In this document: positions 2,701-17,476 of the stretch, piece after piece | Numbering within the stretch: position 1 is the stretch's first letter | Layout: each line of letters opens with the position of its first letter | Assembly (NCBI GenBank): GCA_009377525.1 | Contig: WHTW01000011.1 | Span: 1-64,000, forward strand | Source: Rhodospirillales bacterium | GTDB taxonomy: Bacteria; Pseudomonadota; Alphaproteobacteria; Reyranellales; Reyranellaceae | DNA length: 64,000 nucleotides | Direction of reading: 5' to 3' | Translations under genes and position numbers: made by a program | Notes under the pieces: generated by a model | What the model saw: only the letters and a program-made list of their open reading frames with translations | Database searches by the model: none | Told to the model about the DNA's origin: nothing

Positions 2701-3009
2701 TTACGCGGCAGCCCTGAGCGGCCGGGCGCGTTCGATCCGCTGTCGCTCCTTGGGGCTGTGCATCGCCTGCCAAAGATCGCTGCGCCGCTGCACATTCAGC
2801 CAGAAGTCCGGGCTGTTGCCGAAGACGCGGGCCAGGATGAGGGCGGTCGCCGCCGTCACGTTCCTGCGATCATTGCACAACTCGTTGACGTGCTTGCGCT
2901 GCACGCCCATGGCTTCGGCCAGCGCGCCCTGGGTCAACCCCAGCGGCTGCATGAACTCCTCCAAGAGAATCTCGCCGACCGTGGCCGGCTTGCGCTTCGT
3001 CGTCAGCAT
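2701..3009 (-). CDS. higA: HigA-family antitoxin
   Basis: A 102-residue antitoxin with a HigA-type XRE helix-turn-helix. It opens with the typical PATVGEILLEEFMQPLGLTQ, continues with LAEAMGVQRKHVNELCNDRR (recognition helix region), and ends after ILARVFGNSPDFWLNVQ, a segment diagnostic of HigA. The length matches the family. It starts 12 bp after the stop of the toxin gene, giving the toxin-first order usual for higBA. It is expected to bind HigB and repress the operon promoter. Together they could stabilise the island after integration. Confidence 0.92.
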   Translation of the reverse strand: MLTTKRKPATVGEILLEEFMQPLGLTQGALAEAMGVQRKHVNELCNDRRNVTAATALILARVFGNSPDFWLNVQRRSDLWQAMHSPKERQRIERARPLRAAA

Positions 3010-3021
3010 GGTTCGCCTCGC

Positions 3022-3318
3022 TTATCTGTAGCTGTGGTCGTCGAGATAGACGTTCTCCGCCTCGCCTCGACCGCTGTTCCATCGAAAGACCAGCCGCCAT
3101 TGCTTGTTGACGCGAATCGAATGGAAGCCCGCCAGATTGCCCCGCAGCTTCTCGAAATGATTGCTGGGCGGCACACGCAAGTCCTGATCGGTCGTCGCGT
3201 CGTCGATCATCTGGAGCTTGCGAAAGAGACGGCCTTCGAGATCGGGCGGGATATTCCGAGAGTGGATATCCTCGACGAAAAAGCCTCGTAGCCAATCGTC
3301 TCGAAAGCTCACGATCAT
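3022..3318 (-). CDS. higB: HigB/RelE-like mRNA interferase toxin
   Basis: A 98-residue toxin of the RelE/HigB superfamily, which cleaves mRNA at the ribosome. The family hallmarks are visible: an N-terminal MIVSFRDDWLRGFF, the central PPSNHFEKLRGNLAGFHSIRVN, then QWRLVFRW and a C-terminal YLDDHSYR. The basic residues and the terminal His/Tyr are typical of catalysis and ribosome contact in this family. The gene is first in a two-gene operon with higA, and a short inverted repeat lies 25 bp upstream of its ATG. Confidence 0.92.
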   Translation of the reverse strand: MIVSFRDDWLRGFFVEDIHSRNIPPDLEGRLFRKLQMIDDATTDQDLRVPPSNHFEKLRGNLAGFHSIRVNKQWRLVFRWNSGRGEAENVYLDDHSYR

Positions 3319-3342
3319 CCGGCGGCCCCAAGAATAGCCTTG

Positions 3343-3361
3343 TGTACCACCCCACGGTACA
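3343..3361. promoter_or_regulatory. Candidate HigA operator upstream of higBA
   Basis: A perfect inverted repeat, TGTACC-7 nt-GGTACA, lies 25 bp upstream of the higB start. HigA antitoxins normally repress their own operon by binding such palindromes over the promoter. The site is seen in sequence; binding is inferred. Confidence 0.5.
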
Positions 3362-3842
3362 GTTTACAAGTGCAGGAGCCCCACCCGATGCGTAGTTTGG
3401 ATTGTGGTGCTGCAAGAGAAGACGAATCATCGACAGCTTGGCTGTCGCATTGAAACCGGCAGCAGGTGCGCATGATCATCTTGCCACGCGGCGGTTCAAA
3501 CAGATGATGGAGCCAATTGCCGCGCGCTGGGCAAAGTCAGCCCATAGCAGACTTCTAAATCATGCCCCGGCGTCCCGCCACGTACACTTCACTTAAAGGC
3601 CCATCATCGCAAGAAGGGCCTACTGCGGTCAGGCAAGAGATCGAGTGAGCGCATCGCACGGCTCATTGTCTCGCAAATCACGTCTCTAGCGAGAGCGGCG
3701 CTTTCCTGTGGCACGCTGCACTACGAGGAGACTACCTAACCCTCTGCACTACCGCCCAGCATTCTGCCTTTCTATGGATGGGCTGAGCGCGGAAGTTTAG
3801 CTAGGCTCGCCAGTATCCGATCACCCTAACCTGGAGATATCA
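3362..3842. other. Non-coding stretch
   Basis: No convincing gene or RNA was seen on either strand. The composition is less GC-rich than the surroundings. It should contain the promoter of the two small rightward genes starting at 3843. Confidence 0.4.
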
Positions 3843-4130
3843 ATGCCCGAACAAGATGCGGCGGCCGCACTTAAGGCGTCCATCCAAGCGGCAAAGGAAT
3901 TAGGCGGTCTCAGTCGCAATCAACAAAATGCCCTTGTTGCAAAGAACATCCTTCACGAAGAGTTGGGATACTTTGGAACGGATCATCTGCTCGATTACGA
4001 CCTCGACAGTGAGACAAAGGGGCGACTTCTCGCGCACTGCCGGCAGGACGCAGCGCATGGCGTCGTCAACACAAGTACGGCACTCGATCAGCTTCGCTCA
4101 ATCTCAAGAGCTATTACTTTCTTCGGATAG
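3843..4130 (+). CDS. Hypothetical 95-residue protein
   Basis: I do not recognise the family. The protein is small, soluble and mildly acidic (starts MPEQDAAAALKASIQAAKEL, ends LRSISRAITFFG), has no membrane segment, and contains Cys and His residues in LAHCRQDAAHGVV. A convincing ribosome binding site (CTGGAGA) sits 8 bp before the ATG. The predicted helical sequence LGGLSRNQQNALVAKNIL suggests an alpha-helical fold. It lies just upstream of, and in the same orientation as, the PD-(D/E)XK-like gene at 4156, so the two are probably one operon. Codon use is less GC-biased than in the core genes, consistent with acquired DNA. Confidence 0.6.
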   Translation: MPEQDAAAALKASIQAAKELGGLSRNQQNALVAKNILHEELGYFGTDHLLDYDLDSETKGRLLAHCRQDAAHGVVNTSTALDQLRSISRAITFFG

Positions 4131-4155
4131 CTGACCGTCGGGTTGCTGGCGGTGA

Positions 4156-4791
4156 TTGTCTGGAAACTATGGCATTGAAAAGTGCATCGCTCGGGCCGGT
4201 TTCCTGCGGATGGTACAGCGAGCGGGCGAAGCGGCAACAGCGAGACGACCGATGGTCCTGCCCCTTCCTGCCTTTGTTAGCGCTGATGACCTCAAGACCG
4301 CCGCCCTGGTCGCTGTGAGGAACGTTCTGAATGAGCACAATCGTTGTCGTGCTCTGATGCGAGAACTGGCTACCGCTGGTCGTTTGGCTATCCACCTAAG
4401 TCGCCATCCCATCATTCGTCGTCTCGAAGATGAAGAGAATATTCTCACGGAACCCGAATACGCCACTTCTGGTTTGCACGGCGACCCAAAACGCGCAGTG
4501 CTGGAAGACAATCACGCCGAGGAAGGTGTGAGGCCAGATGTAATCGTGCATAAGCGCGGCATCGAGGGGCCAAATTGCATGGTGATCGAAGTTAAGATGG
4601 GAGATTGGCGAAGCCGCCCGCGCCGAGTGCAGCAGCGCGACCAATGGAAGATCGAAGCCCTTACCAGCGCAGGCCGATTTGAATATGCGCTGGGACTTTG
4701 GTTTGCTTTACCGAAGCGGCCGGACGGTCCCGGCTACTACGCTGAGTTCCGAGGCGGCGCACAAGTTGGGCCTATCGTGCCCATTCCGTAG
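4156..4791 (+). CDS. PD-(D/E)XK nuclease-like protein
   Basis: A protein of about 211 residues if the TTG at 4156 is used; an in-frame ATG at 4210 (MVQRAGEAATARR) is an alternative. The C-terminal half shows the pattern of a PD-(D/E)XK nuclease core: RPDVIVHKRG (Asp on the first strand), then CMVIEVKMGDW (the E-x-K pair), and later aromatic strands FEYALGLWFALP. A conserved-looking acidic patch LEDEENILTEPEYA precedes it. It follows the 95-residue protein by 25 bp. The neighbourhood (toxin-antitoxin, TOTE helicase, relaxase remnant) fits a defence or DNA-processing role. No family name can be given, and catalysis is inferred from the motif only. Confidence 0.55.
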   Translation: MSGNYGIEKCIARAGFLRMVQRAGEAATARRPMVLPLPAFVSADDLKTAALVAVRNVLNEHNRCRALMRELATAGRLAIHLSRHPIIRRLEDEENILTEPEYATSGLHGDPKRAVLEDNHAEEGVRPDVIVHKRGIEGPNCMVIEVKMGDWRSRPRRVQQRDQWKIEALTSAGRFEYALGLWFALPKRPDGPGYYAEFRGGAQVGPIVPIP

Positions 4792-4917
4792 CACCTAGTT
4801 GCCGCGAAGGCCCCCGGGAAAGGCGCGAGGGCTAGTGCAAGATCACGGGGCGTCGCAGACCTGCCGATTGGAGCGTGTGACGGGCTGCGACATCACCGTG
4901 GAGCGACGAAGCAGTAA

Positions 4918-4940
4918 TGTCCATTTTCATCGGACGTGGC
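4918..4940 (+). repeat. Partial copy of the 47-bp dispersed repeat
   Basis: A weaker match to the central part of the repeat defined at 7991-8037: ATTTTCATCGGACGTGGC here against ATCTTCATCGGTCGTGGC in the full copies. The flanks are not conserved. It lies in the gap between the nuclease-like gene and the relaxase fragment. Confidence 0.35.
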
Positions 4941-5011
4941 GCTGGCACGCGCCACCGCGAAGCGGCTGCGGCTGGCCCCGAGTCGGCCCGCTGCCGGCAA
5001 GCAAGCACGGC

Positions 5012-5650
5012 TCACAACCCCAATCCCCGCTTCCACCCGAACGACCAGTCGACATCCTCGCCGGGCATGGCGATGCCGGAGATCTGGCGGCCGATATACT
5101 GCTCAAGCGCCGGCCGCCAGGGGATGAGGCTGAAGCCAAGCCCATCGTCGATCATGGCGAACCGGCCGCTGGAAAGCTGAGTCGAGCCGACGAGCCGGCC
5201 GGCGACGTGGTTGCCGGGAACGGCCGGCTGCCATTGCCGCCCGCGCTCGACAGCGAGCGCCTTGCCAGCGCGGTCGATGTCGGCAGCTTCAAGCCGCCGG
5301 ATCAGGTCTTTCTGTGCGCTGATACGGCCGTTGCCGAGATCGGCTGCGTAGCCCATGTCGACCAGCGACTGCTTGCGCTTCTCCAGCGCCGCCTTGGCCT
5401 CCCGGCCGAACCCTTCATCCGCCAAGATGGTGCGCTCGCGGGCCGCAAGCTCGCGGTCCAGCCAGGTCGCACCCTCATGGCCGATCTGCTGATCGAGGCT
5501 GGTGGGGGATAGCACGCTGATCCGGATGGTCGCACGGTCGCCGGCAAAGTCATGGGCTTGACCGCGCTCGACCAGATCGGCCGGAACGCGCCAATGGTCG
5601 GCGTCGATCCGCTCGGCATGACCGGCCAGCCATAACCGCCTCTTCCTCGA
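5012..5650 (-). pseudogene. C-terminal fragment of a DUF3363-type relaxase
   Basis: An open frame that begins directly after a TAG (5651-5653) and reads into a DUF3363-like C-terminus: HAERIDADHWRVPADLVERG, then SPTSLDQQIGHEGATWLDR, GYAADLGNGRISAQKDLIRR and the ending DVDWSFGWKRGLGL. This is the distal part of VirD2/TraI-like relaxases found on integrative conjugative elements. The catalytic N-terminal relaxase domain is absent, so it is a truncated remnant. The first ATG in the frame would give only about 167 residues. It faces away from the TOTE gene, and both are cut at about the same point. Confidence 0.7.
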
Positions 5651-5661
5651 CTACTGAAAAG

Positions 5662-7914
5662 GTGGCGCAGTTTCGGCGTCTGTTCGCCGGCCGCTCTGAC
5701 GTATTTCCCCTTCGATGGGAGAACCGGAAAACCGCCAAGTCAGGCTATGCGCCCGCGTGCGCCAACGAGTGGGTCCGAGGAATATGCGGCAAACCGCAGG
5801 TGAAATGCGGGGAATGTCCGCATCAGGCATTCATCCCCGTCTCGGACGCTGTGATCGAAAGACACTTACGTGGCGGCGACGGCCGAGGGCATTCCGACGC
5901 CGACTTCGTCGCCGGTGTCTACCCGCTACTGCCGGATGAAAACTGCTGGTTCCTGGCGGCCGATTTCGACAAGGAAAATTGGATGGCCGACGCATCGGCC
6001 ATGGTCGACACCTGCCACACGAAGGGAGTGCCCGCTGCTCTCGAACGGTCCCGATCCGGCAACGGCGGCCACATCTGGATTTTCTTTTCCGAACCGCTCC
6101 CGGCGCGCACCGCGCGTCAACTCGGGGCGGCTATCCTGACCGAGACCATGGAGCGGCGCCCTGAAATCGGCTTTGCGTCCTATGATCGCTTCTTTCCGAG
6201 CCAGGACACCATGCCGCTCGGTGGGTTCGGCAACCTGATCGGCTTGCCTTTGCAGAGGAAGGCGCGCGAGCGCGGCAATAGCGTCTTCATAGACCAGGAT
6301 GGCCGCCCATACGAAGATCAGTGGGCCTTCCTCTCATCCTTGTCGCGGCTCTCCGCCGACGCCGTTTCGGACATCGTTGCCGATGCAGAGACGCGAGGCC
6401 TGATACTGGGCGTCCGGATGCCCGTCGAGGATGAGGACGCAGACGAGCCGTGGCGCATGACTCCCTCTCGTCGGAAGGAACCGGCGCCCATCGGGACGCC
6501 TCTCCCTGACAAGATCAGCATCGTTCTCGCGGATCAGCTTTATGTTGATCGGGCTGGATTGCCCCCCGCGATCGTCGCCCGCTTCATTCGATTGGCCGCC
6601 TTCCAGAACCCGGAATTCTATCGCGCTCAAGCCATGCGACTGCCGACATTCGGCAAGCCGAGGATCATCTCCTGCGCCGAACTTCATCCGCGCCATATCG
6701 GGCTACCACGCGGGTGCCTGGACGAGACTCTGGAACTTATCCGGACTCACGGCCCGGAGGTCGAGATGCGGGACCTTCGGACAGCGGGAAATCCGCTGCC
6801 GGCCGAGACACGATTTTTGGGCACGTTGCGTGCTCCGCAGCTCAAGGCATTCGATGCTCTCACACCGCACGATCACGGCGTGCTGGCGGCGACGACCGCC
6901 TTCGGCAAGACCGTTGTCGCTGCCGCGTTGATCGCTCAGCGGGCATGCAACGCGCTCATCCTCGTCCACCGCCGAGAATTGCTTACGCAATGGATCGAAC
7001 GCCTCAAGACATTCCTCGACATCGATCCGAAGGGTATCGGGATCATTGCCGGCGGTCGGCGCAGACCGACAGGCATCGTGGATATCGCGCTGATCCAGAG
7101 CCTCGTGCGTCGTGGAGAGGTATCGGACCTGGTCGCAGACTATGGTCATCTGATCATTGATGAATGCCATCATCTCTCGGCGGCGAGTTTCGAGTTGGTG
7201 GCGCGGCGGGCGAAGGCACGATACGTCCTCGGTCTGTCGGCGACGGTCGCGCGCAAGGATGGGCATCATCCGATCATCTTCATGCAATGCGGTCCGATTC
7301 GGCACCGCGTCGATGCGCGGACGCAAGCCGCCGACAGGGGCCTCAGGCATCGCGCCAAGCATCGCCCGACCGGCTTCCAATTGCCGGCGCACCTGAGCAC
7401 CCTTGATCGGCCACCCATGCCGGCGGTCTACGCGGCTCTCTCCCAGGACACGACCCGTAACGATCTGATCTTCGACGATGTGTTGAAGGCGTTGGAAGCC
7501 GGACGCTCGCCGGTCGTGCTTACCGAGCGCAGGGATCATCTCGACTATCTTCAGGACCGCTTCTCGCGCTTCGTGCGCAATCTGGTTGTCTTGAGGGGCG
7601 GCATGTCAGCCACCGAGCGCAAGGCGTCCGAGGCAGCCCGCCGTGTGCCGGACGATCAAGAGCGACTGATCCTGGCGACGGGACAGTATATTGGCGAGGG
7701 CTTCGACGATCAGCGGCTCGATACGCTCTTCCTGACCATGCCCATATCCTGGAAGGGCACCCTGGCCCAATATGTCGGCCGGTTGCACCGCCAGCATGAG
7801 GGAAAGACGGAGGTTCTTGTCATCGATTATGTCGACGAGTCGGTTCCAGTGCTGGCCCGGATGGCAGCAAAACGGCGAGCGGGATATCGCGCGCTCGGCT
7901 ATACGATGGAATAG
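5662..7914 (+). CDS. TOTE conflict-system primase-helicase
   Basis: A 750-residue fusion. The N-terminus is an archaeo-eukaryotic primase (AEP) domain of the TOTE conflict family: Cys-rich CGKPQVKCGECPH (residues 42-54), metal-binding DFD (101-103), SGNGGHIWIFF (132 on) and GGFGNLIGLPLQ (187 on). A superfamily II helicase follows, with motif I ATTAFGKT (410-417), the DECH box (500-503), GLSATVARKDG, and a C-terminal helicase domain ending in LAQYVGRLHR. TOTE systems are proposed to act on invading nucleic acid. Known relatives, as I recall them, have extra sequence before FRRLFAGR. Here the frame starts at a GTG with a poor ribosome binding site, right at the relaxase junction, so the 5' end may be lost. 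Confidence 0.85.
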   Translation: MAQFRRLFAGRSDVFPLRWENRKTAKSGYAPACANEWVRGICGKPQVKCGECPHQAFIPVSDAVIERHLRGGDGRGHSDADFVAGVYPLLPDENCWFLAADFDKENWMADASAMVDTCHTKGVPAALERSRSGNGGHIWIFFSEPLPARTARQLGAAILTETMERRPEIGFASYDRFFPSQDTMPLGGFGNLIGLPLQRKARERGNSVFIDQDGRPYEDQWAFLSSLSRLSADAVSDIVADAETRGLILGVRMPVEDEDADEPWRMTPSRRKEPAPIGTPLPDKISIVLADQLYVDRAGLPPAIVARFIRLAAFQNPEFYRAQAMRLPTFGKPRIISCAELHPRHIGLPRGCLDETLELIRTHGPEVEMRDLRTAGNPLPAETRFLGTLRAPQLKAFDALTPHDHGVLAATTAFGKTVVAAALIAQRACNALILVHRRELLTQWIERLKTFLDIDPKGIGIIAGGRRRPTGIVDIALIQSLVRRGEVSDLVADYGHLIIDECHHLSAASFELVARRAKARYVLGLSATVARKDGHHPIIFMQCGPIRHRVDARTQAADRGLRHRAKHRPTGFQLPAHLSTLDRPPMPAVYAALSQDTTRNDLIFDDVLKALEAGRSPVVLTERRDHLDYLQDRFSRFVRNLVVLRGGMSATERKASEAARRVPDDQERLILATGQYIGEGFDDQRLDTLFLTMPISWKGTLAQYVGRLHRQHEGKTEVLVIDYVDESVPVLARMAAKRRAGYRALGYTME

Positions 7915-17451: not shown

Positions 17452-17476
17452 GGTTCGAATCCCGCCCTGTCCGCCA
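17452..17476 (+). repeat. Distal attachment site copy (attR)
   Basis: An exact 25-bp duplicate of the tRNA-Ser 3' end at 698-722, including CCA, with no other part of a tRNA attached. It marks the right end of the island. Confidence 0.85.

Follow-up and report, generated by a model that had tools for sequence, protein, structure and literature searches.

We regard the region 3843–7914 of the stretch of DNA analysed here (64,000 nt, the first part of contig C22 in a Rhodospirillales genome of 7.35 Mb in 208 contigs; hereafter the window, to whose positions all coordinates refer) as a patchwork, situated at that end of a probable integrated island where the recombinase lies, with one intact, partnerless nuclease of the PD-λ-3_A type and no cluster serving a single function; we put the probability of this reading at about 0.8. 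The preliminary description had grouped three open reading frames (ORFs) of this region, 3843–4130 (95 amino acids, aa), 4156–4791 (211 aa) and 5662–7914 (750 aa), all on the + strand, into a candidate defence cluster composed of a small protein, a PD-(D/E)XK-like protein and a TOTE primase-helicase. The ORF listing and family matches confirmed that the frames lie where they were reported, in the same orientation and with HigBA nearby on the - strand. All three are open; however, the 95-aa frame and the TOTE gene turned out to be truncated, and a relaxase fragment intervenes. Because both neighbours of the nuclease gene are truncated and no pairing was seen in the loci examined, we prefer a patchwork to a single system, which corrects a plausible call of a defence cluster and adds a probable lone member to the family of PD-λ-3_A nucleases, which is known through an E. 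coli system that has been tested. The following features carry the argument:

3843–4130, + strand: truncated small membrane-protein gene, 95 aa (ORF; pAt2 homologue; homology past the stop; hydropathy)
4252–4791, + strand: intact gene for a putative PD-(D/E)XK-type nuclease, probably a divergent homologue of PD-λ-3 component A that stands alone (profile homology; alignment)
5018–5623, - strand (antisense): C-terminal fragment of an RlxS/DUF3363 relaxase, a pseudogene between the nuclease and TOTE genes (PF11843, 6.2e-49; NF041267, 3.6e-45)
5623–5641, no strand: junction at which relaxase homology ends and TOTE homology starts within about 18 bases (profile and homologue comparison)
5662–7914, + strand: 5'-truncated gene for an AEP-TOTE primase with an XPB-like helicase (PF22548, 6.4e-96; ResIII, 1.3e-20)

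The putative nuclease and its relatives

The 211-aa frame opens with TTG 4156, but since homology to its closest relative begins near codon 45, we take ATG 4252 as the likely start and number residues from it. The frame matched no family in Pfam or NCBIfam. The closest relative found belongs to G011, a genome of the same genus (41% identity, E-value 3e-20; 2 of 101 genomes including the window's own), and the same homologue as on contig C30 of G011 is carried by contig NZ_FUWJ01000021.1 of Enhydrobacter aerosaccus ATCC 27094. A wider sample of 398 genomes, overlapping in part with the first, again yielded two genomes including the own one, the second (L006) at 3.3e-4, while a three-row profile retrieved 11 of the 398, likewise including the own one, nine of them from a single genus, g47. 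The L006 protein matches the PD-Lambda-3_A model of PADLOC at 1.3e-21. The profile-profile comparison of the window protein and the G011/Enhydrobacter protein (L031), a cleaner test as it excludes L006, identified a relationship with four proteins of the PD-λ-3_A family, one of which is component A itself from the E. coli plasmid p22Q34-1 (probability 97.4, E-value 1.3e-11, 122 columns). The same two-protein profile also matched three rhizobial or sphingomonad plasmid members (probability 96.0, E-value 3.7e-9).

Residues E38, R44, D96, H100, N108, E113, D130, K133 and Y145 are invariant in all 12 aligned members, including the window protein. In the PD-(D/E)XK nuclease superfamily the catalytic residues are an E in a helix, a D and the E-x-K half-motif, and the window protein possesses all of these. 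The D...E-x-K pattern noticed earlier is genuine, with D96, E113 and K115 kept in the 41%-identical G011 homologue. Position 115, K in the window, is R in two g47 rows of the 12-member alignment (L006 and L023). The replacement of E-x-K by E-x-R is common to the relatives L006, L023 and L027 from this alphaproteobacterial genus, in which catalysis may be altered or lost. From these comparisons, 4252–4791 probably encodes an intact, divergent PD-(D/E)XK-type protein that is distantly homologous to component A of PD-λ-3.

Direct searches were uninformative. The window nuclease had no match among 72,556 plasmid records (tblastn, 1e-3) or in phage records, nothing useful came from genome contigs searched with it alone, and scans of viral contigs with the nuclease pair, single family members or alignment A8 gave nothing useful, two of them recovering only their own query. 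Neither the window nuclease nor the 95-aa protein matched a family in phrogs, and the nuclease profile found nothing significant among the sequences of solved structures.

Fold of the nuclease family

The structural analysis was based on L074, a relative from a viral contig, which was folded together with five others, including the window protein (predicted local distance difference test, pLDDT, 78.3; predicted template-modelling score, pTM, 0.76). The best rows returned by Foldseek for this model were BstEII (2.5e-3) and the restriction-endonuclease-like structure 3ijm (4.8e-3). VIA-align 2 superimposed it on 3ijm (Z 8.3, root-mean-square deviation (rmsd) 3.0, 104 aligned), EcoRV (Z 8.2, rmsd 3.5, 114 aligned), Hjc (Z 7.0, rmsd 3.4, 89 aligned) and, in four rows, Wolbachia CidB/CinB (Z 6.5–8.6), where a Z of about 8 is close to the background stated for the program. 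Most of the 50 VIA-align 2 rows are, by title or by what we take the protein to be, nucleases of the PD-(D/E)XK superfamily; the top-ranked neighbours also include DUF820 proteins, and three rows are human Rep15. Because structural neighbours from the superfamily combine with the motif residues, we consider a restriction-endonuclease-like fold well supported by modelling for the family, and by extension predict it for the window protein.

Defence setting and the missing component B

PD-λ-3 of E. coli is described as an abortive infection system that protects against phage λ (PMC13190303), and it is listed with a PD(D/E)XK domain (PMC10952713). On p22Q34-1, component A (2.3e-100) is followed by component B (1.2e-179; it also matches Aga_HEPN at 1.6e-15), with brxL close by. 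The suggestion that the middle gene belongs to a defence-type nuclease family was borne out by the PD-λ-3_A profile match and by the surroundings of plasmid members. Of 46 plasmid records matching L006, eight loci were picked by hand, hence non-randomly, and six of them (L032, L034, L036–L039) carry a BREX, Qat, AbiH, AbiV or restriction-endonuclease annotation within 4–5 kb; L036–L038 are related loci, and therefore the counts are not independent. L033 and L035 have no such annotation, although L033 carries ThiF and Mov34/MPN genes. In G011, the surroundings of the relative include a gene that weakly matches ZorA (2e-6) and one for an S1/P1 nuclease. The family is thereby extended also to settings beside AbiH, AbiV, Qat and BREX.

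Two of these settings deserve separate mention. Beside the closest nuclease relative, L005 (3186–8638) contains a five-gene row with membrane (by reading), weakly ZorA-like (2e-6), S1/P1 nuclease and OmpA/MotB-like (by reading; ZorB row 0.051) genes, possibly a Zorya-like system. In the rhizobial plasmid loci L036–L038 (5000–7150), the PD-λ-3_A-type nuclease gene is followed by an uncharacterised gene with no PADLOC match and then by AbiH or AbiV, which may represent a differently partnered relative of PD-λ-3.

PADLOC holds models for both components of PD-λ-3. The PD-Lambda-3_B model (TIGR02391/HEPN-type) matched none of the 95-aa, relaxase-fragment and TOTE proteins and found nothing in the whole own genome, where the control was likewise silent. 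As no component B was found, the nuclease acts alone, uses a partner encoded elsewhere or is a remnant. It is probably a new, divergent and partnerless PD-λ-3_A-type nuclease. PD-(D/E)XK nucleases usually employ metal-dependent chemistry, and the window protein, if expressed, would probably use E38, D96, E113 and K115 in this way to cut DNA or another nucleic acid upon phage infection. A fully functional defence gene that works by itself, without any part played by its neighbours, is quite possible, though somewhat less likely than not: the frame and the motif residues are intact, other family members may also manage without B (scans of one or two neighbouring genes gave no PD-Lambda-3_B match at any of five loci, L033 and L035–L038), and single-protein DNase systems are reported in the paper that discovered PD-λ-3 (PMC9519451), but there is no adjacent B partner, only one relative of comparable closeness occurs in the 101- and 398-genome samples, and the ribosome-binding sequence before ATG 4252 looks weak by eye. 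How small nucleases work without component B becomes a directly testable question.

The truncated small gene

The 95-aa frame, whose ATG is preceded by GGAG, matched no family in Pfam, NCBIfam or PADLOC. Its one clear homologue was found on Agrobacterium pAt2 (E-value 4e-11; 46.9% identity over residues 29–92 in the tblastn match and 42% when aligned with MAFFT), a protein of 108 aa. The gene of this homologue immediately follows that of a 283-aa protein and is itself followed by an oppositely oriented MobF relaxase gene. This homologue aligns to window positions 3849–4172, across the TAG at 4128 (tblastn E-value 6e-19), and the frame read through the TAG ends at 4178 in a membrane-helix-like tail: the C-terminal hydropathy (19-residue mean) is 2.32 in the homologue, 2.06 in the read-through product and 0.59 in the truncated frame. 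The hydrophobicity of the 15-codon tail was equalled or exceeded by 23 of 2000 base shuffles, those with stops being counted as misses. Because the homology crosses the TAG and the tail resembles a membrane helix, we read the frame as a truncated small membrane-protein gene, in which the TAG evidently cuts short a C-terminal membrane-helix-like stretch; its product would be what truncation has left of a small membrane protein, the one clear homologue of which has another partner gene on its plasmid.

The first 18 kb of the window showed no trace of the 283-aa neighbour (best E-value 2.5), the 95-aa protein had no match in phage records or viral contigs, and it gave nothing significant against sequences of solved structures. 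A second match of the small-protein profile, in G450 (7.7e-4), lies within a long permease-like frame (by reading) and was dismissed as chance. Recoding of the TAG was rejected, the homologue comparison being the sole test that bears on it.

The TOTE primase-helicase and the relaxase junction

The AEP-TOTE domain occupies residues 2–237 of the 750-aa frame (profile positions 4–229 of 230); PADLOC labels this part as a CRISPR-associated PrimPol (4.8e-84), and the relatives in the PDB include XPBII helicases and TPR-region primase chains, among others. Homologues are present in 102 of 72,556 plasmid records (E-value at most 1e-50), with 71.6–76.3% identity among the 40 of the 102 that were listed, and in one further genome of 75 at 1e-50; none was found in 50,697 phage records at 1e-30. 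In all 12 plasmid homologues inspected, 67–107 residues precede an LFRxLF motif, forming a terminus that looks coiled-coil-like by eye (L013 was counted by reading upstream of its annotated start, which would leave 42 residues). The match of the window protein starts only a few residues before LFRxLF, between about 5629 and 5641. The 870 bp between the nuclease and TOTE genes contain the antisense relaxase fragment, which covers NF041267 positions 453–651 of 654 (residues 10–209 of the frame 5015–5650 on the - strand) and whose profile match ends at about 5623 on that strand. The coincidence of the relaxase end with the TOTE start indicates that one recombination probably joined both and removed the 5' end of TOTE; by comparison with the 12 homologues, the window copy has evidently lost about 60 N-terminal residues at this junction. 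Genes of this kind are common on plasmids; the one here would be a gene apart, shortened at its 5' end when it became joined to the relaxase fragment.

TOTE stands for TPR, OB, TBP, Effector (PMC12458937); the phrase 'TOTE conflict system' was not found in the open-licence library searched. The window has the AEP-TOTE effector domain and the helicase that characterise such a system, but not a full-length effector, and no TPR, OB/CSD or TBP family was detected among the eight proteins or frames between 630 and 7914 that were scanned with Pfam. Whether the enzyme still works alone from GTG 5662 is doubtful: both domains are present in an open 750-codon frame and the relative in genome G006 possibly does without the extension too, but here the extension, the original start and the upstream region are gone, and the ribosome-binding sequence before GTG 5662 appears weak by eye.

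The G006 homologue (L009, 7910–10882 on the - strand, in a genome of the same genus) has a DUF559 domain fused at its C-terminus (5.1e-14), which we take to be of the Vsr-like nuclease type, so this TOTE-type protein may carry its own nuclease in cis.

The three genes are not found together in the relatives' loci examined

The proposal that the nuclease is a partner of the TOTE primase-helicase and forms with the small protein one defence cluster finds some encouragement in the shared strand, in the placement of all three genes within 4.1 kb and in the defence-type nature of the middle gene. It was confronted with the loci of relatives by a six-frame profile test: none of 13 TOTE loci matched the nuclease or small-gene profile, and none of 19 loci of the nuclease family matched that of the TOTE primase or the small gene (best chance row E-value 0.047), where 12 of the 102 TOTE plasmids were tested and 10 of the 19 nuclease-family loci have flanks of about 1.5 kb or less. 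One plasmid, Pukyongiella NZ_CP043620.1, is shared between the 40 listed of 102 TOTE records and the 46 nuclease-family records and speaks for the proposal, but about 16 kb containing further genes separate its TOTE gene from its nuclease relative. Together with the intervening relaxase fragment at which TOTE is truncated and the missing TPR, OB/CSD and TBP families, this makes the proposal highly improbable, and we rejected the idea that TOTE supplies or uses the nuclease. Within 6-kb flanks of the 12 TOTE plasmid loci there was also no BREX, Qat, Abi or restriction-endonuclease product, setting aside TOTE's own name in L040; toxin-antitoxin genes occur in four (L013, L014, L016, L042). Of the observations that the preliminary description had named as decisive against its cluster, the absence of homologues near TOTE was found, whereas some homologues do have other defence genes in their vicinity, and a nuclease fold was modelled for a relative.

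The alternative offered there, an undescribed two-gene system, can be phrased with the 95-aa protein as membrane sensor or anchor and the nuclease as effector, the anchor having been lost here. The two genes share a strand, only 73 bp separate the read-through end (4178) from ATG 4252, and their G+C contents (0.53 and 0.57) are similarly low. Against this, the small gene is broken in the window; its sole clear homologue follows the 283-aa protein on pAt2, whose 16-kb locus contains neither a nuclease nor a TOTE match (0/1), the whole plasmid being without an AEP-TOTE match as well (the control recovered the family in one of 14 genomes); and G011, the genome of the closest nuclease relative, has no match to the 95-aa protein, an apparent transposase fragment (by reading) preceding the nuclease gene there. 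We find this system improbable, and so, to a similar or slightly greater degree, its more specific version, in which a small membrane protein took the place of the HEPN-type partner of a PD-λ-3_A-type nuclease, giving a membrane-tethered two-gene system whose anchor is broken in this genome. The G+C contents of the relaxase fragment (0.68), of TOTE (0.62) and of the stretch from the small gene to the nuclease (0.53–0.57), against 0.66 for the whole window, are consistent with separate origins. Promoter and terminator patterns in 3300–5800 were uninformative. In an integrated island, shared strand and proximity are weak evidence for a common function when the neighbours are truncated and their relatives are not found together.

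Points against a patchwork with a PD-λ-3_A-type nuclease

Several results pull the other way. The small gene and the nuclease gene look operon-like, with a shared strand, low G+C content and a short gap. The single-sequence PADLOC match of the window nuclease to PD-Lambda-3_A is weak (0.002), and the model had no match in the own genome at a cut-off of 0.001, where the control was equally silent; the G011 relative has no PD-Lambda-3_A match, its sole PADLOC match up to 0.1 being DrmA (0.01). The window protein folded with one relative gave a model too poor for structural searches (pLDDT 37.4), which is why the fold rests on L074, 24% identical to it, and Foldseek found no PDB match for the L074 model at an E-value of 0.001 or less. 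L009, the thirteenth TOTE homologue, has a different upstream sequence and may start close to the LFRxLF motif; possibly it is short too, and the lost N-terminus may then be dispensable. Finally, the right flank of the window beyond the last 25–32 tRNA bases was found in none of 29 relatives' loci, several of which stop at the tRNA or close to it.

The integrated island

The features outside the three-gene region are:

630–2324, - strand: large serine recombinase, whose frame enters the tRNA gene of the other strand (ORF; family matches)
633–722, + strand: tRNA-Ser(GGA), probable integration site (tRNA identification)
2701–3009, - strand: HigA, of an ordinary toxin-antitoxin pair outside the proposed cluster (family matches)
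3022–3318, - strand: HigB, the other member of that pair (family matches)
17452–17476, + strand: identical copy of the last 25 bp of tRNA-Ser, candidate attachment site on the right (repeat, E-value 1.6e-8 in the window)

The last 25 bases of the tRNA gene (698–722) recur exactly, as a direct repeat, at 17452–17476, which suggests that an island of about 16.8 kb is probably integrated in tRNA-Ser, with the three frames at its recombinase end. The sequence left of the tRNA is common to all 29 relatives' loci, which extend at most about 1.5 kb past it, several ending at or near the tRNA. Because these loci gave no right flank, the support for integration comes from the 25-bp repeat and the large serine recombinase, and the right end of the island is a candidate one. 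The island also holds ABC-transporter, luciferase-like and CoA-transferase-like frames (named by reading). A stretch of about 68 bp at 103–170 is a dispersed repeat, with copies of 82–94% identity in eight further contigs of this genome (9 of 240 first-look candidates were scored).

Comparison with known systems

The nearest known protein is PD-λ-3 component A (PADLOC PDLC03986), which the window nuclease resembles in homology over 122 columns, in the same E...D...E-x-K residues, in being small and in residing on mobile DNA. It differs in its divergence (19–25% identity to the aligned members other than L005), in an insertion of about eight residues after the E38 helix and in having no component B match alongside, whereas p22Q34-1 encodes A and B together. 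The same family includes the PD-(D/E)XK-type proteins encoded close to AbiH or AbiV in the rhizobial plasmid loci L036–L038, but these occur in multi-gene sets, while the window nuclease stands alone. The TOTE gene is of the kind known from alphaproteobacterial plasmid AEP-TOTE primase-helicases, from which it appears to differ in missing the first ~60 residues and in lying in what seems to be a chromosomal island; and of the RlxS/DUF3363 relaxases the window keeps only the C-terminal third, without the catalytic N-terminal part.

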